Shown: positions 7,105 to 26,616 of the stretch, piece by piece
Layout of the letters: the number at the start of each line of letters is the position of its first letter
Numbering within the stretch: position 1 is the first letter of the stretch
Source of the DNA: a virus
DNA length: 27,016 nucleotides
IMG/VR virus record: IMGVR_UViG_3300036785_000133
Location: 1 to 27,016 of that record
Direction: 5' to 3' (one strand)
Notes under the pieces: model-generated
The model's database searches: none
What the model saw: only the letters and a program-made list of their open reading frames with translations
Told to the model about the DNA's origin: nothing
Translations under genes and position numbers: made by a program

Positions 7105-9024
7105 TCAACCGTCTACTATTATAGTAATAGATATCGGAGCTGGAAGTGGATTTCCTACACCATGAGTATTACTATAAACCTCTGTGTCCCATCCACATTG
7201 ACCTCCTCCATGATCAGTCCCTCCCTCACTTCCAGATGGAGTAAGTCTACATCCTACTAACGTACTATAATGGGCTCCCTCTGAAAGAGCTAGCTTCTCT
7301 CCAATGATAGCTAATGGAAAATAAAGAGAAACTCCACCAGATCCTTGATTAGCTCTAGTATTTTCCAATTCAGCTGTTCCTCCGTCAAAGGAAATTGAGG
7401 TACCAGTTCCACAAGACACATTTCTTGAACTTCCTCCTGTAGAAAACTTCACCAATTGTTTATCCCAAACTAAGAAAAAATTTCTCAGAGTTGGACTTAT
7501 TTCTATATAATCTCCAGCACTTGTTTGTACAACTCCTCGATTTTGAGTAGGAGGAAGCTGTAACGTGGATTTAGATCTTTTTCGTTTTCTATTAAACCAA
7601 GAGAGTACACAAAGGGCACCATCTTGATCAATCCAAGCTGGTCCAATTGTTGTTTGAGCAAAACCAACCAAAGTACGTGACTGATCTCCATTTTTAATTT
7701 CTACTCCAGTAATTAAAGATCTCGTATGACCCGTAGGCGAAGCTTCCAACGCCATCCCAGAGTTTGTCATATAAGCATAGATATAGTATACTACATAAGG
7801 AATAAGTCCAGATGGACTTAGACTAATCCCACCACTTGGAATCACTTGAACTTGAGCATTTATAATAACACTATTACCATTATAGGGATGGAAAAGTAAT
7901 ACTCCATTTATTAATTCCAAATAACCGCCTGGAGGATTAACTACTGAAGTAACTCCACCAGGACCAGAAGCTCCTGTTACACCAGTAGCACCAGTGCCTC
8001 CACCACCGTTAGGTATTAGCTTTCTGGCAAATAATCCACCTGTGAAATCAATCCAACATAACCATCCAGTAGCGTTCTGAGAACTTACAGGTTGTATAGC
8101 ATAACCAATGCACCAGTCGTTAGGAGCAGTTACAATCTTACCTACGTTAGCTCCAGTTCCTGCGTATAGCAACTGGAATGTACCGTACGTATTTACAGGA
8201 TCAACATAAGCACCATAATTTGTGACTTCTCCATCTCCTGTACGTATTCCAATTATAAAAGGATCGTTTGTAGGATCGGATACTTTAATTCTAACATACT
8301 GAGGATCTAAAGCACAAATAGTACCTACATTAACATCAGAGTTAAAAAGTGTTGGATCAACAGGAACAACGCCTTCACCCTGGCCAGGTATCAGTCTTTC
8401 AGCAGCCATTAACCAAGCAGGATTAGCTCTACCTTGTGTAGCAGTTTGCCTAAGAGATATTGATGGAATTCTCATAAACGAATGTCTATCTACTTGATAA
8501 GTATTAAAAGCAACGTGTAAAGGGTCAGGAAGAAGTGACTCATTAGCTACTTCAGGTACTGCTAATAGTTTTAGCAATGGTATTGTAAAATTACATAACT
8601 TGGATAATTTAGTAATTGATAAGTATATTGAGTACGTAAGTCTATTTCCAACAACATTTCCAGAAGTTGAGAATTTGTAATCAGGAACTGGATTGCCATT
8701 AGCATCAACAGCATCTATAGCTGTTATTGAAAATAGTACATTACTATCAGTAAAAAGTCCTATTCGACCAACAGCAAATGGTGGACTTCCAACCGACTCG
8801 TCCAAAGTTAAAATAAATTCTACAGTGTTGGCATCAACTACAGCGTATTGTAATGACGTAGAAGTATATACTGAGCCTGGTAGATCTGTAGACGGGTCAT
8901 TTGCAGAAGGGGGAGGTGTTGGAGAAGGATCTATTTTAGCATGAGTAATATTAATCTTAGGACCAGCACCAGTATTCGCATTTTTAGCGTAGGTTATACC
9001 TGAAGCTGTTACTTGTGTGGTCAT
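7105..9024 (-). CDS. Tail fibre protein, distal copy of a tandem pair
   Basis: Tail fibre or receptor-binding protein of 639 residues with GGAGAGG just upstream of its ATG. The N-terminal ~150 residues resemble the P2 gpH-type attachment domain: they open TTQVTASGITYAKNA and include VGRIGLFTDSNVLFSI. A conserved shaft follows (residues ~150-330), then a short collagen-like stretch GATGVTGASGPGG (about 346-358), a domain with GNSVIINAQVQVIPSGG and VLSWFNRKRKRSK, and a variable tip ending in VYSNTHGVGNPLPAPI. It is a paralogue of the fibre gene directly upstream, nearly identical in many N-terminal stretches and most different at about residues 500-620. The variable tip is the likely receptor-contact zone, by analogy with other fibres. 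Confidence 0.8.
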   Translation of the reverse strand: MTTQVTASGITYAKNANTGAGPKINITHAKIDPSPTPPPSANDPSTDLPGSVYTSTSLQYAVVDANTVEFILTLDESVGSPPFAVGRIGLFTDSNVLFSITAIDAVDANGNPVPDYKFSTSGNVVGNRLTYSIYLSITKLSKLCNFTIPLLKLLAVPEVANESLLPDPLHVAFNTYQVDRHSFMRIPSISLRQTATQGRANPAWLMAAERLIPGQGEGVVPVDPTLFNSDVNVGTICALDPQYVRIKVSDPTNDPFIIGIRTGDGEVTNYGAYVDPVNTYGTFQLLYAGTGANVGKIVTAPNDWCIGYAIQPVSSQNATGWLCWIDFTGGLFARKLIPNGGGGTGATGVTGASGPGGVTSVVNPPGGYLELINGVLLFHPYNGNSVIINAQVQVIPSGGISLSPSGLIPYVVYYIYAYMTNSGMALEASPTGHTRSLITGVEIKNGDQSRTLVGFAQTTIGPAWIDQDGALCVLSWFNRKRKRSKSTLQLPPTQNRGVVQTSAGDYIEISPTLRNFFLVWDKQLVKFSTGGSSRNVSCGTGTSISFDGGTAELENTRANQGSGGVSLYFPLAIIGEKLALSEGAHYSTLVGCRLTPSGSEGGTDHGGGQCGWDTEVYSNTHGVGNPLPAPISITIIVDG

Positions 9025-9035
9025 TCAACCTCTCC

Positions 9036-10937
9036 TTAGCCGTCTACAACCATAGTTATAGTAATTGGGGATGGAAGTGGATTAGAGACATTATGCGTAT
9101 TACTATAATCATAAGGTCTCCAATAAGCAGTCCCTGGACCTCCTCCAGAAAGAAATCCCATTAAAGTACTATAATGCAAACCTTCTAGTAGTCCTTTTCT
9201 TGTTCCTGTAAGAGCTATAGGTCCCTCCATATTAGGACCTCTCGAACCTTGAGAAGCGGTTGAGTTCTCTGACTCTGGATAATTACCATCAATGCTTATT
9301 GCAGAAGTTACTCCATTTCCGCCATTAGCTAAGTGACTACCACCAGTAGAGAATCTAGCTAGTTGGTTACCCCAAATTAAGAAGTAATTTCTTAGAGCTG
9401 AACTGACCTCGACATAATCATTAGCGGCATTTGATGCTAGTTTAGGTAATATAGTTCTAGATCTCTTTCGTTTTCTATTAAACCAAGAAAGTACACATAA
9501 GAGACCATCTTGATCAGCCCAACTAGATCCTACGGTTCTAGCAAACCCGACTAATGTACGAGATTGATCAAGATTTTTAATCTCAACACCTGTGATTTGA
9601 GAAGTTATATGACCTGTGGTCGAGGCTTCTAAAGCCATTCCGGTCTGAGACATAAAGGCGTATATGTAATAATTAGTATCAGGGGAAAGTCCAGTTGAAG
9701 GAAGAGTAATCCCAGAACTAGGAACAATTTGTACCTGACCATCAATGATAATACTATTTCCATTATAAGGATGCAAAACTAATAATCCACCCAATAGTTC
9801 AAGGTAACACTGACCTCCAACTTGGAATCCCCCTCCTCCACCTCCCGGACCTCCACCAGGACCAGTAGCTCCTGTAGCTCCTGTAGCTCCAAAACCAGTT
9901 GGTGTAGACTTTCTAGCGAACAGACCTCCAGTAAAATCAACCCAACATAGCCAACCTACTATAGGTTGTGAACCAGCAGGCTGACTATTAACTGGACCTA
10001 TGGTATAACCTATGCACCAGTTGTTAGGTGCGGTCACAATTTGACCAGCACTTACTCCACTTCCAGCATATAGTAAAGTAAAAGCACTAGAGTAATTATT
10101 GATATTATCAACATACACACCGTAGTTTGTAACTTCCTCGTTACTAGATCGTATACCAATCATAAAGTTAGTAATTTGTGGATCAGCCAGCCAAACCTTT
10201 CCACTGCTTGAGTCAATATACACAACTGAACCAACGGTAGCATTAGGAGCGAAAAACGAAGGATCAATTGGAACTACACCTTCACCCTGACCAGGTATCA
10301 GTCTCTCGGCAGCCATTAACCAAGAAGGATTAGTTCTACCTTGAGTAGCTGTTTGTCTAAGGCCTATTGCTGGAGTTCTCATAAATGAGTGTTTATCTAA
10401 TTGATAAGTATTAAAAGCTACCAGGGTAGGGTCAGGTAAGAGTAGCTCTGAAGCCACTTCAGGTATAGTTAACAATTGTAGTAATTGAATTGTAAAGTTG
10501 GATATAGTAGCTAGACTTGAGATTGCTAGATATATAGAGTATACTAACCTGTTTCCAACAACAGTCCCAGCAGTTTTGAACTTAAAGTCAGGAACATAGT
10601 TTAAATTAGCATCTTTAGCATCAATCATAGTTATAGAAAATAATGTATTATCGTCAGTGAAAAGTCCTATTCTACCAACAGTAAAGTTACCTACCGATTC
10701 ATCAAGAGTTAAAATATATTCTACAGTGTTAGCGTCAACTACGGCATATTGTAATTGACCTGGACTAGCTGTGTAGACTGAATCTGTTATGTCCGTAGAA
10801 GGATCATTAGGAGATGGAGGTCCTGGAGGAACTTGAGTAGGACCTATTTTTGCATAGATTATATTAATCTTAGGTCCTTGGTTATTACGAGCATTAACTG
10901 CATAGGTTATACCAGCTTGTGTAATTTCAGTAGTCAA
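9036..10937 (-). CDS. Tail fibre protein, proximal copy of a tandem pair
   Basis: Tail fibre of 633 residues. It starts at TTG, chosen because GGGAGA lies about 6-7 bases upstream and the N terminus then aligns exactly with its paralogue (MTTEITQAGITYAVNA against MTTQVTASGITYAKNA). Domain order is as in the next gene: gpH-like attachment domain (~1-150), shaft (~150-340), a collagen-like and glycine-run linker (GATGATGATGPGG, then GGGGGG, about 360-380), a beta-rich domain with VLSWFNRKRKRSR, and a variable tip ending YSNTHNVSNPLP. It lies directly downstream of the gp7/tail-protein-I-like wedge gene, the usual place for a fibre that docks on the baseplate. Which copy contacts the baseplate cannot be told from sequence. 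Confidence 0.8.
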   Translation of the reverse strand: MTTEITQAGITYAVNARNNQGPKINIIYAKIGPTQVPPGPPSPNDPSTDITDSVYTASPGQLQYAVVDANTVEYILTLDESVGNFTVGRIGLFTDDNTLFSITMIDAKDANLNYVPDFKFKTAGTVVGNRLVYSIYLAISSLATISNFTIQLLQLLTIPEVASELLLPDPTLVAFNTYQLDKHSFMRTPAIGLRQTATQGRTNPSWLMAAERLIPGQGEGVVPIDPSFFAPNATVGSVVYIDSSSGKVWLADPQITNFMIGIRSSNEEVTNYGVYVDNINNYSSAFTLLYAGSGVSAGQIVTAPNNWCIGYTIGPVNSQPAGSQPIVGWLCWVDFTGGLFARKSTPTGFGATGATGATGPGGGPGGGGGGFQVGGQCYLELLGGLLVLHPYNGNSIIIDGQVQIVPSSGITLPSTGLSPDTNYYIYAFMSQTGMALEASTTGHITSQITGVEIKNLDQSRTLVGFARTVGSSWADQDGLLCVLSWFNRKRKRSRTILPKLASNAANDYVEVSSALRNYFLIWGNQLARFSTGGSHLANGGNGVTSAISIDGNYPESENSTASQGSRGPNMEGPIALTGTRKGLLEGLHYSTLMGFLSGGGPGTAYWRPYDYSNTHNVSNPLPSPITITMVVDG

Positions 10938-16204: not shown

Positions 16205-16717
16205 CTAGAGACCATGTTCCTTTGGAAACTCTTTCCCAAAGTAATCTTTATGATCGTCCCACTCACGTCTAGCAGAACCAATTATTCTATGTGTATACTG
16301 AGGAGCTGGAGCTTTATCTGCTAAGCTGCTTAGTCCTTTAAACTTTTCTAATTTATCATCTATGTGACTCATGATAGCTGAATGATTTCTTTTTATATGA
16401 TCAACTGCACTTTGACGATTGGGATCGCTTTTATCAACAGCTGTAAATTTTAGAACATGGATGGAATTTATTCCTTTTTGATAATCTTTCATTAGATGAG
16501 GAAGTGCAAATCTGTTAGCTCCTTCACTATCAATTGACTTGACTTGATTGTTTAGATGACTTTCTATATCGTTTTGTTTAGCAAAAACTCCAGACATAGA
16601 TGCTGCAACGTTACTAAGTTTCTTGTGAAATTCATCCGACTTTTGTGTTTTTCTAGCATTGAGTTTAGCGGAGAAATCAACAACGTCGCCTTCTAGAATG
16701 TCTAGTATATAGCTCAT
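16205..16717 (-). CDS. Small helical protein of unknown function in the hub region
   Basis: A 170-residue charged protein, predicted mostly helical, with no motif that I recognise. Its ATG shares one base with the stop of the hub gene (TAATG) and AGGA lies about 8 bases upstream. Features: a Lys/His-rich coiled stretch (FHKKLSNVAASMSGVFAKQ), HIKRNHSAIMSHIDDKLEK, and a C terminus rich in Asp, His and Lys (EWDDHKDYFGKEFPKEHGL). It lies between hub and spike, the place where some phages encode spike-assembly or hub chaperone proteins, so an assembly role is possible. This is inference from context only. Confidence 0.6.
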   Translation of the reverse strand: MSYILDILEGDVVDFSAKLNARKTQKSDEFHKKLSNVAASMSGVFAKQNDIESHLNNQVKSIDSEGANRFALPHLMKDYQKGINSIHVLKFTAVDKSDPNRQSAVDHIKRNHSAIMSHIDDKLEKFKGLSSLADKAPAPQYTHRIIGSARREWDDHKDYFGKEFPKEHGL

Positions 16718-17877
16718 TAAGCTAGTCCTAGATCTAAGCCGGCATCATAGTTGGCACCTTGTCTAATCAAGGTGTAGTTCTTTGTTACTGCTGTAGGTAA
16801 AATCATTGTCGAGACTTCAGAAACAAAGTATGCCCCTGCAAACGGAGTGATAATTCCATCGTTTAAGACTAGAGAATGAGGCTCTAGGTAAACATGATCT
16901 AGCAATAACGCAGACCTTGGATACCTTGCCATTATCTTACATTGAGTGGAGTACATACATTTAAATCTTAGATTTTGAACTGCTGCTTTGTTATAATTTT
17001 CATGTTGATTATCAGACTTGAATGGCATAGTTGTAGCCCTTTGACTACCCATAGCATCAGATGCCATATTAGAAAAGCTAGAAGCTATTTGACCAATATT
17101 AGCGCTAACATCTCCAAACCCTTTATCTAAATCATACTGTCCATTTGTAGACCCGTATCCACCAAGAGTATTTAATGTACCAGAGATAGTTTCAAAAGTT
17201 GCATCTATCGTATCAAACATAATATCGTTAGCTGCTGGAATATAGTTCCCAGCATACCTATTCAGAAACTTCCAAGAAGTACCGCCACCAGATCTCGCAT
17301 TAACATCATACATGCGAAGAGAACCATTAGCAAGGATAGCAATAACGAAACAAGAGAAATTAGAGGCCCAAGAATGCGGAACTGTCTGAAAAATAAAATC
17401 AATCCCTCTTTCGTTAGTACGTAACCAATACTGAGTATCAGAAGTGGCGTCGCAGTCTGGAGATAATCCGGCATCACTAGCGCAGGCAGCTATAGCATTA
17501 GAAGATGAAGTCTTACCATAAGACTTAATCCTAGCTCTGAACAAATCGTTTGCGTCTATTCTTAGAGAAAGAAAATACTTAAATTCATTCGTACCAGACC
17601 AAAGTCTAGAATTAAATACTTTCATTTTATAAAAACTAACGTTCGGTGGATCCATTTGCATATCTGTTAGCGTAATATAAATTGGAGTACCATCAACTGG
17701 TGGATTTTGAAATACGTACTTAGGGCTACATGCAAATATAAATTCTCCAGTAGGATACTTAGCCTTACAACTTTCCATTATATCAATACGATCGAGAGCA
17801 GCGTGACCCCAATCAATAGACTCACCTCTGATAGTTACTTCAAGAGCGAATCTATTTATGAGTAAACGAGTAGAAAT
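16717..17877 (-). CDS. Baseplate hub protein, gp27/gpD-like, probable ATT start
   Basis: Hub protein joining tail tube, baseplate and spike. The first ATG (17778) has no ribosome site, while the frame is open 33 codons further up. The only well-spaced ribosome site is GGGAG (17884-17888), 6 bases before an ATT, giving an N terminus of about MSTRLLINRFALEVTIRGE. From there the product is 386 residues, close to T4 gp27 (391). Hub-like features: alternating strands with YITLTDMQMDPPNVSFY, ANDLFRARIKSYG, a mid segment WLRTNERGIDFIFQTVPHS, SLRMYDVNARSGGG, and a C-terminal FAGAYFVSEVSTMI followed by YTLIRQGANYDAG, the form seen where gpD-like hubs meet the spike. Either the rare start is real or an upstream indel hides a normal one. 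Confidence 0.6.
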   Translation of the reverse strand: MSTRLLINRFALEVTIRGESIDWGHAALDRIDIMESCKAKYPTGEFIFACSPKYVFQNPPVDGTPIYITLTDMQMDPPNVSFYKMKVFNSRLWSGTNEFKYFLSLRIDANDLFRARIKSYGKTSSSNAIAACASDAGLSPDCDATSDTQYWLRTNERGIDFIFQTVPHSWASNFSCFVIAILANGSLRMYDVNARSGGGTSWKFLNRYAGNYIPAANDIMFDTIDATFETISGTLNTLGGYGSTNGQYDLDKGFGDVSANIGQIASSFSNMASDAMGSQRATTMPFKSDNQHENYNKAAVQNLRFKCMYSTQCKIMARYPRSALLLDHVYLEPHSLVLNDGIITPFAGAYFVSEVSTMILPTAVTKNYTLIRQGANYDAGLDLGLA

Positions 17878-17889: not shown

Positions 17890-18129
17890 TTAACAGTGTG
17901 TCACGTATCCAAAAGTAACAATAGTAGTCGACGCAGTTATTCCTGTAGGACATCCTTGAACAAAGACTCCATTGGTAGCTCCATTTACGCTTCCTCCACT
18001 ATTATTAGTAAAATCTACCTGTCCAAATACAGTAGCACCGGCACCAGTATTAACTGTCGAGTTAAATCCGATACCAGTATTCGAGATAGCAACTAAGAAA
18101 GCTATGGAATTACCGACGTACCGTTTATA
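17890..18129 (-). other. Open -1-frame extension of the beta-helix protein
   Basis: In the -1 frame relative to the beta-helix gene, 79 codons are open between a TGA at 18130-18132 and TAA at 17890-17892. The text is protein-like, rich in Gly, Thr, Asn, Val: LVAISNTGIGFNSTVNTG, GATVFGQVDFTNNSGG, VNGATNGVFVQGCPTG, TTIVTFGYVTHC. No ATG, GTG or TTG opens it, so it cannot be a normal separate gene. It most likely is the C-terminal part of the beta-helix protein, reached by a -1 shift somewhere in the last 8 codons before the stop, or cut off by a one-base indel. A single extra G in TCGGTA would give a smooth join. It accounts for most of the apparent gap 17779-18101. Confidence 0.55.
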
Positions 18130-19526
18130 TCAATATTATTACCAAGGAAACGCACCATACCAGCATTATCGTTGACAGCAGCCGTCCCCATGGGATTAGC
18201 AAAGTTATTTCCGGCTAAAGCAACTACTCCAGTGACTGAAGAATCAATTGACACTCCATATCTAGCGTAACCTATTTGGTTTAGAGCAAATCCGATCTTA
18301 CTATTTGCTATCAGTGCGTTACTTGTTCCTCCTGCTTGAGTGATCTCAATAGCTGAGTAAGTATTTAAAGTATTCTTTCCACAGTCGTAAACATCAGTAC
18401 CAATTATACTAAAATCAATCGAATTAGAAACAATACATCTACCGTAAGTATCATGAACGCCACCACCAATAAGCTTAACTTGTCGTGTTATGGAACCACT
18501 AGCACCAGCGTCTGGATCTATTTGAACAATCGGGATATCTGCCGTCGTACCAGAAGAATTAAGATCTGATGCTATAAACTGCATATTATATCCAGCTTGT
18601 ATCCAAAGAGCTTGTTGGCTAGCACCATCAATCTGCAAATTTGTAAAAGTACCAAAGGCAGGGTAGAAACTAGAGTTATGAGAATTATTAGATATAGCTA
18701 GACCTATTGTACATCCTAACATTACTAAACGGTTAGAATTAACAGTTTGAACCATACCATCCCATTGCATACAAGTAGTAGGAGAGTTTGGTTGGATAAC
18801 TGAACGATCAATCGTGAACTGATCACTTCTCTGAGCACTATTAGCTGGACTAAAAAGAACTACAGCACCATTCAATCTAGAATCACGTACAATCATATCG
18901 TTAAATTGTTGTACATAAAGAGCAGTATGAGTTCCAGTCACACTGATAATGACATCCTCAAGTCCAGGTTGTGACGCCCCCAGAACATTAACACCATATC
19001 CAGCAGTTCTAGCAGTATTATCCTTAATCGTAAGATGTCTTAATCTAATATTACTTGGTCCAGGAAGACCTGCCATGTTACCTATATTAATATTATTAGC
19101 AGTAGCGTTATTAAAAACTAAAGTAGTTCCTACATTACCACCATCAATAGTTATATTACTAAAATTAATAGATAATGTATGATTACTCATAGAACAAGTC
19201 TTACCACTTGGTACTACAATGAGTCCTCCTGAAGAAGTAGCATTGATAGCTGCTTGAAAAGCAGAAGAGTCATCAGTCACACCATCACACTTAGCATTAT
19301 ATGGTGGAGATATTACAGAGGTAACATTTAAAGTATCTTGTTTATTTATAAACGCTTGATTGAGACTAAGAGGATTTGGATTAGGGTCGCTAGAACAATC
19401 TGTATTTGGATAGTTAGCACATATATGTGCTCCTTCGACAAATCCAGGATTTCCTTGTGCTTTTACTAAATTTACTAGTCCAAGTAAGACCAGTAAAGCC
19501 AGAGAAAGTTTCTTATCCCAGTACAT
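18102..19526 (-). CDS. Pectate-lyase-type beta-helix protein with signal peptide
   Basis: Right-handed beta-helix protein of the pectate-lyase-3 / tailspike type, likely a carbohydrate-binding or -degrading appendage. N terminus: MYWDKK, then a hydrophobic core LSLALLVLLGLVNLV and a signal-peptidase-I-like site VKA-QG, a textbook Sec signal. Residues ~75-95 hold the family entry motif, YNAKCDGVTDDSSAFQ, followed by many short Gly/Asn/Ile/Val-rich coils up to the end (IRLRHLTIKDN, VKLIGGGVHDTYGRC). No catalytic residues can be assigned by eye. AGGAGG ends 5 bases before the ATG, and the gene overlaps the gp53-like stop by 14 bases, so this start is firm. It ends at TAG, but the frame appears to continue in -1 for about 79 codons. 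A secreted protein in a baseplate operon is unusual. Confidence 0.78.
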   Translation of the reverse strand: MYWDKKLSLALLVLLGLVNLVKAQGNPGFVEGAHICANYPNTDCSSDPNPNPLSLNQAFINKQDTLNVTSVISPPYNAKCDGVTDDSSAFQAAINATSSGGLIVVPSGKTCSMSNHTLSINFSNITIDGGNVGTTLVFNNATANNINIGNMAGLPGPSNIRLRHLTIKDNTARTAGYGVNVLGASQPGLEDVIISVTGTHTALYVQQFNDMIVRDSRLNGAVVLFSPANSAQRSDQFTIDRSVIQPNSPTTCMQWDGMVQTVNSNRLVMLGCTIGLAISNNSHNSSFYPAFGTFTNLQIDGASQQALWIQAGYNMQFIASDLNSSGTTADIPIVQIDPDAGASGSITRQVKLIGGGVHDTYGRCIVSNSIDFSIIGTDVYDCGKNTLNTYSAIEITQAGGTSNALIANSKIGFALNQIGYARYGVSIDSSVTGVVALAGNNFANPMGTAAVNDNAGMVRFLGNNIDINGTSVIP

Positions 19527-20166
19527 CAGGACCTCCTAGGATACTAGATCCAAGTGTGAATATAGATTCGTCAGGTACAGGAGTAGGAGTAGTAGGAGGA
19601 GTAGTAGGAGGAGGAGGAGTAGGAGGAGTAGGTGTTGGAGGAGGCATAGAAATAGGAGGAGACACTGGAGGTGGAATTACAGGTGTTGGAGGCTTAGGAG
19701 GTACAGATCTAGGAGTACGAGTAGGAGTAGGTGTAGTAGGAGTAACAACGTTAACAACGTTAGAGACAGGAACTGGATTTGTTCCAACCCCCTGAGGAGT
19801 AAGATTTATAATTCTAAGTGAAGAACTTCTTTGGTTAATCTTAGACAAGAAATTAGATACGTCATCTGTACCTGGTATGTAGATATTAGTACCAATTTCT
19901 ATTTCAGTATCAGGAGTTATCATTTGATTAGCAATTGATAGCACCCACCATAAATCATGGGTACCATACTCCTGAAATGAAATTAAATCAGGAACTCCCT
20001 CTTTCGAAGCGTCAATTCTACGTACCTGACCTATAGAATTTCTTAAAAAGTAAGGTAAGTCCGTCCAGAAAAATGTGTAAGGATCTAGAATGGTATTGTT
20101 GTTAGGATCGACAGCTGTCTGGAAAAAGTTGTCCAGTGAGTACTGTCTAGTTATGTTTGTAGCCAT
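19513..20166 (-). CDS. gp53-like baseplate wedge protein with proline-rich tail
   Basis: Baseplate protein of 217 residues. The first ~110 residues match T4 gp53: an N-terminal Tyr-rich segment (YFLRNSIGQVRRIDAS), then ISFQEYGTHDLWWVLSIAN (the conserved S-x-x-x-YG-x-x-LWW-x-L core), QMITPDTEIEIGTNIYIPG (a short loop with a LysM-like IP end) and DVSNFLSKI. The last third is low-complexity, proline/threonine-rich (PTTPTPTRTPRSVPPKPP and onwards, about residues 141-196), and is not part of the T4 protein. It may be a flexible arm or a spacer to the beta-helix protein encoded next. Its stop lies inside the beta-helix gene. In T4, gp53 bridges wedges and the hub. Confidence 0.75.
   Translation of the reverse strand: MATNITRQYSLDNFFQTAVDPNNNTILDPYTFFWTDLPYFLRNSIGQVRRIDASKEGVPDLISFQEYGTHDLWWVLSIANQMITPDTEIEIGTNIYIPGTDDVSNFLSKINQRSSSLRIINLTPQGVGTNPVPVSNVVNVVTPTTPTPTRTPRSVPPKPPTPVIPPPVSPPISMPPPTPTPPTPPPPTTPPTTPTPVPDESIFTLGSSILGGPDVLG
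19532..19537 (-). promoter_or_regulatory. Ribosome binding site for the beta-helix protein
   Basis: Perfect AGGAGG on the minus strand, 5 bases before the ATG at 19526. It lies inside the gp53-like gene and supports the start that includes the signal peptide. Confidence 0.7.
19577..19743 (+). repeat. GGA/GTA-rich simple-sequence tract
   Basis: About 165 bases of plus-strand sequence made of repeated GGAGTA, GGAGGA and GTAGGA units, coding on the minus strand for the Pro/Thr-rich tail of the gp53-like protein. It contains many GG runs on the plus strand (the template strand of this operon). Repeat-length changes by slippage would alter the protein arm without breaking frame when they are multiples of three. 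Confidence 0.6.
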
Positions 20167-25878: not shown

Positions 25879-26616
25879 TTACAACGACAGTTGTTGAACA
25901 GAAGGACCTGGAGTAGGTAATCCTTGATCGTTTGTTAGATCAGGATTACCTTGTCCTGGAACCAAAGCCAAACGACCAACCGAGAAAGACTGTGCAATCT
26001 TACTTCTACCTGGACTCTCATAGTCTAGATGAAGAGTTGCAGTCGTTGTTGGAAAACAGTATTTATACCAAAGTGTATGAACTATATGGTTCTGCATATC
26101 TTGTATATATACATAAATATCATACCAGTAATTTATTGGATAAAGATAAGTTCCATCGTCTGAGCCAGTAGATTGAGAAAACGGTCTAATCAATTTCTTC
26201 CAGGCAAGAATATACTCTAAAGGAGTACAAGAAATTAGGTTTCCACTGTCGTCAGAATAAGCATCATTATACATTATCATATTTAATTCTGAGGTATCGA
26301 AAAAATCTGCTATAAACATATGCCTACCACCGATTGGGTGAGGCTCAGCTATAGTGTTATCGAAACTACAAACAACTGATTCAACTATAGGCCTCAGAGG
26401 ATTACCAGGTAATGGTGGAAGAAGGACGTCAAATTTAAATATTCTATGAGGTTCAGGTATCTCTAGAGCATGATAGGTACCAATAGTTATCTGGCCATTA
26501 GTACCTATAGTGCCAGTAAAATTATTTGCTTGAGGAGATATTATGACTGGAGTAGCAACTGGTATAACTACATCAGTTGCAGTTACACTAGGTAGAATGG
26601 GGACTGGAATGGGCAT
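25879..26616 (-). CDS. Tail tube protein of gp19 type, second copy
   Basis: A 245-residue protein resembling T4 gp19-type tube subunits: a central beta-rich domain with FKFDVLLPPLPGNP, PHPIGGRHMFIADFF, SCTPLEYILAWKKLI, then YLYPINYWYDIYVYIQD and VHTLWYKYCFPTTTATLHLDY (shown in part), and a Pro/Gln-rich C-terminal tail. The Y-P-x-x-Y-x-x-D-I-x-V-Y segment is the strand where tube proteins pair around the ring. There is no good ribosome site; the start follows the previous stop by 4 bases and is probably coupled. Being one of two tube-like genes in a row, it may be a minor tube variant or a tube cap (gp54-type). Call by pattern, moderate confidence. Confidence 0.6.
   Translation of the reverse strand: MPIPVPILPSVTATDVVIPVATPVIISPQANNFTGTIGTNGQITIGTYHALEIPEPHRIFKFDVLLPPLPGNPLRPIVESVVCSFDNTIAEPHPIGGRHMFIADFFDTSELNMIMYNDAYSDDSGNLISCTPLEYILAWKKLIRPFSQSTGSDDGTYLYPINYWYDIYVYIQDMQNHIVHTLWYKYCFPTTTATLHLDYESPGRSKIAQSFSVGRLALVPGQGNPDLTNDQGLPTPGPSVQQLSL

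Follow-up and report, generated by a model that had tools for sequence, protein, structure and literature searches.

A swappable, putatively exported spike-like protein and a matching baseplate end-peptide hint at tail parts that certain phages export and may fit to the particle later

In a virus record of 27,016 bases (the window, from the whole of which the neighbours and the gene set were read) we identified a gene inside the baseplate operon whose product combines a predicted Sec signal peptide, a conserved N-terminal module and a variable C-terminal domain, and whose upstream neighbour ends in a peptide that recurs on other tail proteins. Our preferred reading, to which we assign a probability of about 0.45, is that the product is a modular protein resembling a spike or depolymerase, exported through Sec and stabilised by disulphides, and that it forms one cassette with the upstream tag and docks on the baseplate at lysis. 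The usual assumption is that the adhesins of tailed phages are synthesised and attached inside the cytoplasm, and Sec export is in conflict with cytoplasmic tail assembly unless the two parts join late; if both export and tag docking hold, joining at lysis would reconcile them. The more general proposition, that some phages build a tail part outside the cytoplasm in the form of a disulphide-bonded periplasmic spike, which is picked up at lysis via a baseplate peptide and is encoded by a cassette that crosses unrelated phage types, is regarded by us as rather unlikely.

The gene of the spike-like protein (P0001, 474 aa) lies on the minus strand at 19526..18102 and was recognized by its open reading frame, its leader and a domain match. 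Its ATG at 19526 is preceded, with a spacer of 5 bases, by a Shine-Dalgarno sequence AGGAGG (19532..19537, minus strand), which doubles as part of the LGG codons in the tag of the upstream gene. The start is located inside the last codons of this upstream ORF (19513..20166, minus strand), which encodes a gp53-like baseplate wedge protein of 217 aa with a linker and a tag (PHROG 15542, 1.4e-10; PHROG 7145, 6.4e-7), and via this overlap the spike-like protein would be made in step with the baseplate protein. According to the Pfam and PHROG matches the surrounding operon is a baseplate operon, with the gp53-like wedge, a gp5-like hub/lysozyme, gp25 and gp6. The first-pass annotation had described a secreted-type protein built into the baseplate operon, overlapping the gp53 gene and started from a perfect AGGAGG five bases upstream, and this arrangement is real; the interval that it gave, 18102-19537, does contain the gene, but the ORF itself covers 18102-19526 on the minus strand and the last bases belong to the Shine-Dalgarno region.

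The predicted signal peptide, MYWDKKLSLALLVLLGLVNLVKA (19458..19526, minus strand), is followed by QG and consists of a basic start, a hydrophobic core and an AxA/Q-type site, with cleavage predicted at VKA/QG. Its best 12-residue hydropathy within the first 30 residues is 2.97, and only one of the 18 other window genes exceeded 1.6 (2.28, at 25879-26616), its start being without a basic residue. Signal peptides were called by a simple rule of our own (n-, h- and c-region and a small-residue cleavage site, applied to genes of at least 100 aa), according to which a signal-peptide-like start is found in one of the 21 window genes of this size, namely the spike-like gene, and in one of 12 genes of G001, a close relative recognized via its terminase (147.5 kb, 89%), where it again belongs to the exported-type gene. 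The leader is present in every homologue of the module that has an intact 5' end, and in two more distant variants as well; the core diverges among the homologues, whereas the cleavage region is fixed, with a small residue and then Q at the same place. The full Sec signal peptide claimed in the first-pass annotation is thus borne out, both by the rule and by its conservation. The same annotation had pointed to homologues without the hydrophobic leader as evidence to be sought against export, and none was found among the module homologues with intact 5' ends; a spike assembled in the cytoplasm would be expected to have no export leader. In two podovirus-like contigs (L016:7969-10146 and L013:4132-5858) several further signal-peptide-like starts were observed among the structural genes.

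Cysteines were counted in the mature proteins, those inside the leader having been removed first. The window protein has 8, and its counterparts have 14 (G001), 16 (L009), 6 (L010), 6 (L012), 12 (L013), 10 (L016), 8 (L057), 8 (L070) and 12 (L145); the number is even in 10 of 10 mature proteins of the exported type, with a chance of about 1/256 when about 8 independent lineages are taken, whereas 6 of the 10 cysteine-containing structural proteins of the window have an odd number. The cysteine content of the spike-like protein is 1.8%, as compared with 0.7% in its structural neighbours (p 0.02), and the two cysteines of the module are invariant in six aligned sequences. If all cysteines were paired in disulphides, as an oxidising compartment would allow, even counts would result. 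Sec export of the spike-like protein is considered probable, since the conserved leader with its AxA/Q-type site, the conserved cysteine pair and the even cysteine numbers support it well, and the mature protein would fold and oxidise in the periplasm. That the leader stays uncleaved in practice, its hydrophobic stretch serving an otherwise ordinary tail spike as an anchor or assembly element, seems improbable to us: the position in the baseplate operon and the leaderless occurrence of the same kinds of domains in cultured phages would suit such a protein, but the basic start, the core and the cleavage site, the divergence of the core next to a fixed cleavage region, and the cysteine pattern all argue against it.

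The mature protein begins with a conserved module (Q24-D64; 19335..19457, minus strand) of the form GNPGFVEGA.ICANYPNT.C...NPLSLNQAF, in which Cys36 and Cys44 are the conserved cysteines, and continues with a variable C-terminal domain (18105..19334, minus strand). A search with the full-length protein returned zero relatives, but the N-terminal module alone reached others: the leader and the next ~40 residues (NPGFVEGA.LCANYPNP.C...NPLSLNQAF) occur in seven other uncultured virus contigs, with the leader intact in six. The consensus after the cleavage site in the homologues is NPGF[VI][ED]GA.LCA...C...NP..LNQAF..K.D. The query with the N-terminus led to L009, which is the same kind of phage, to L010 and L012 with Mu-like tail genes, and to the podovirus-like L013, L016 and L019; the contigs with the module carry myo-, Mu- or podovirus-like tail genes, and their C-terminal domains differ. 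In G001 the place behind gp53 and ahead of the following baseplate gene is occupied by a 363-aa ORF, which shares only residues 1-75 (55%) with the window protein and has an unrelated C-terminus. The identity to the L010 protein is 36.5% in an alignment of 167 positions that takes in the leader and the module. A scan for the upstream tag, in which the module was not used, retrieved L070, with the same module, and L057, whose protein combines a leader with a short, related module and a hydrolase of the GDSL type (phrog_6102), and a stricter tag scan added L145, with an exported-type fibre-like protein of 748 aa. Matches of the NPLSLNQAF pattern in L023-L025 and L028 were rejected as chance. The C-termini on the shared N-terminal module are swappable, comprising a beta-helix, a GDSL hydrolase and unknown domains; a signal peptide, a mature module of ~40 residues and an interchangeable C-terminal domain would make up the architecture of an exported spike, and judging by the domain types the protein probably acts, in exchangeable versions, in the manner of a spike or depolymerase.

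The assignment of the window's C-terminal domain to the pectate-lyase-like beta-helices is weak but consistent. The protein matches PF12708 with an E value of 2.7e-5 and 24.5 bits, below the cut-off of 27 bits, and two relatives with the same module match this family at 1.1e-4 and 8e-4. AlphaFold2 reached a mean pLDDT of only 34 with the single sequence and 33 with a 4-row alignment, and a PDB sequence search gave zero matches. The pectate-lyase-3-type fold named in the first-pass annotation thus keeps its family match in three proteins, at a sub-threshold score and with low-confidence models. Pectate-lyase-like beta-helix tail spikes and depolymerases, exemplified by gp214 and gp216 of phage pf16 (PMC5587285), have modular C-termini and a tail-gene neighbourhood in common with the spike-like protein. 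ORF84 of Burkholderia phage vB_BpP_HN02 shows weak similarity to the beta-helix region of the window protein and starts without a signal peptide. The catalytic domain family of the L057 protein is found in cultured Pseudomonas phages as phrog_6102/GDSL lipase domains, and unlike L057 all four versions checked there (4/4) are without a leader. The N-terminal module itself gave zero matches in the phage collection, and likewise zero in the plasmid collection and in the GTDB genomes.

The comparison of L157 with L009 is the strongest evidence on the joint movement of the tag and the spike-like gene. The DNA of these two related phages is ~80% identical as far as about codon 130 of gp53, and the identity resumes shortly ahead of the gene that follows; in between, 1583 bp of L009 are missing from L157, and they comprise the linker and tag, the exported-type gene and a small exported coiled-coil-like ORF. 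Judging by this empty site, tag and gene were gained or lost together, as one cassette. In the window the Pro/Thr-rich linker of the gp53-like protein lies at 19561..19797 (minus strand) and is absent from gp53 of L157 and of the cultured relatives QdP_Psa3 and phiXF1, whose gp53 proteins are short (113 and 123 aa), lack the tag as well as the linker, and are not followed by an exported-type gene. The small companion ORF, seen behind the exported-type gene at L008:6665-6880 and L009:9227-9457 and absent from the window, has one mature cysteine and is faintly spanin-like.

The C-terminal tag of the gp53-like protein is FTLGSSILGGPDVLG in the window (19516..19560, minus strand), with its last codons overlapping the start of the spike-like gene, and the corresponding ends are FTLGESKLGGTNVLG in G001 and FTLGSSVLGGSNVLG in L009. 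What is new here is that the tail gene upstream of the exported-type gene, although it belongs to different families, ends in the consensus F[TI]LGxSxLGGxDVLG: the virion proteins bearing it include the gp53 wedge, a Mu-type hub (phrog_184, L010), a wedge of phrog_203 and a tail tubular-type protein (phrog_394, L016), and in Mu-like and podovirus-like contigs upstream proteins of other families have the same or a similar end peptide. The tag is conserved as a peptide, because its codons vary synonymously while the residues are kept, and because the conservation reaches upstream of the overlap and the Shine-Dalgarno region. For these reasons, and since the peptide is present inside other proteins too, the possibility that it is a mere by-product of the overlapping start was rejected. 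Uniqueness to exported-type genes was likewise rejected, as the tag of L144 precedes a leaderless gene and most scan matches are internal, so that an exported partner is not a requirement for the tag. In unrelated contigs the peptide F[IT]LGxSxLGGxDVLG is common, often in tandem, in tail proteins belonging to several families, where it lies internally or close to the N-terminus (L035, L047, L059, L094 (Dit-like) and >100 other scan matches). Searches of the open-access literature yielded neither a description of the tag peptide nor a report of Sec leaders on tail spikes, which is weak evidence.

The simplest reason for the co-mobility, and for the fact that different tail proteins keep the same peptide, would be that the exported protein docks on the tag. 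According to our preferred reading the mobile cassette would supply the upstream tail protein with linker and tag as well as the spike; the exported protein, already in the periplasm, may act on envelope polysaccharide, and at lysis its N-terminal module would dock onto the tag, which completed baseplates would expose. Leader, module, domain swapping, tag and co-mobility are seen in the sequences themselves, whereas export, disulphides, enzymatic activity, docking and the timing of docking after lysis are inferred. The chief alternative is an exported enzyme that stays free: it would pass from the periplasm into the medium at lysis, trim surface polysaccharide or debris for the escape or diffusion of the progeny and never enter the virion, the gp53 overlap setting its expression level only. 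This explanation is possible, though we find it doubtful. It would suit the leader and cysteine evidence, the beta-helix and GDSL hydrolase domains, the dispensability of the cassette in L157 and the small exported companion ORFs in relatives, but it leaves unexplained why a baseplate protein gains or loses its linker and tag along with the gene, and why the tag is conserved beyond the overlap and the Shine-Dalgarno region. The first-pass annotation had left the choice between a periplasmic or surface effector and a tail part joined by an unusual route; the comparative data modestly favour the tail part, since the gene travels with a tail-protein tag, its C-termini are of the tail-fibre/spike type, and the same kinds of domains occur leaderless in cultured phages. 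An exported spike meets no obvious need, because the window phage has two ordinary collar-fibre genes (7105-10937), probably its receptor-binding fibres. These two collar-fibre-like genes (7105-9024 and 9036-10937) are related, tandem and diverged copies.

Export of phage proteins is ordinary in itself, as demonstrated by the endolysin Lys44 of fOg44, which is Sec-exported with a genuine cleaved signal peptide (PMC6116005), by Llp of T5, likewise sent to the periplasm (PMC9586334), and by Lom of lambda, a signal-peptide protein encoded between tail genes (PMC12309495). None of the three combines a modular spike with a tag on a tail protein. Lys44 is a lysis enzyme, whereas the protein studied here is spike-like and made with a tagged baseplate protein; contrary to an exported endolysin, it has zero Pfam or PHROG matches to a peptidoglycan-cleaving domain. 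Lom is an outer-membrane beta-barrel rather than a modular spike. Llp, which blocks a receptor from the periplasm (PMC9586334), gives a precedent for superinfection exclusion or receptor masking, where the exported spike would bind the receptor that the phage itself uses, be it from the inside or the outside, and shield the progeny from lysis debris. Spike-like domains would suit receptor binding, but Llp is a small lipoprotein without a tail-protein tag, in contrast to the 474-aa modular protein, which has no lipobox (the +1 residue is Q, not C, in the window protein and in the aligned homologues), and the baseplate-operon location presumably means late expression, so that we consider masking very unlikely. 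The earlier suggestion that the protein blocks rival phages found no support here. A class of spike-like proteins with leaders, paired cysteines and a co-moving tail-tip peptide would point either to a periplasmic arm of virion assembly or to the export of depolymerases as a common strategy of environmental phages, and the tag-module pair is a simple candidate for a natural docking system.

The C-terminus of the window protein deserves a separate remark. Behind its stop an open segment without a start codon, ...GCPTGITASTTIVTFGYVTHC* (17890..18129, minus strand), continues in the -1 frame and stops 12 bases before the start of the next gene, its overlap with the spike-like ORF being ~27 bases only. 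Since the segment fills nearly all of the space between the stop and the gene that follows, the real protein may extend for another ~70 aa or have a frameshifted C-terminus. A homologue of the segment was searched for and not found. Its product ends in ...CPTGITASTTIVTFGYVTHC and adds two cysteines, so that the number stays even. The segment probably represents the C-terminal part of the exported protein in a displaced frame, for which an assembly error, a mutation and -1 frameshifting are the candidate origins. The baseplate gene that follows (16717..17877, minus strand; phrog_25710) has an apparent ATT start (17877-17875) behind GGAG, from which it reads 386 aa, exactly the length of its G001 homologue; the latter has ATG at this start, and L009 and L157 have ATT TCT AC there.
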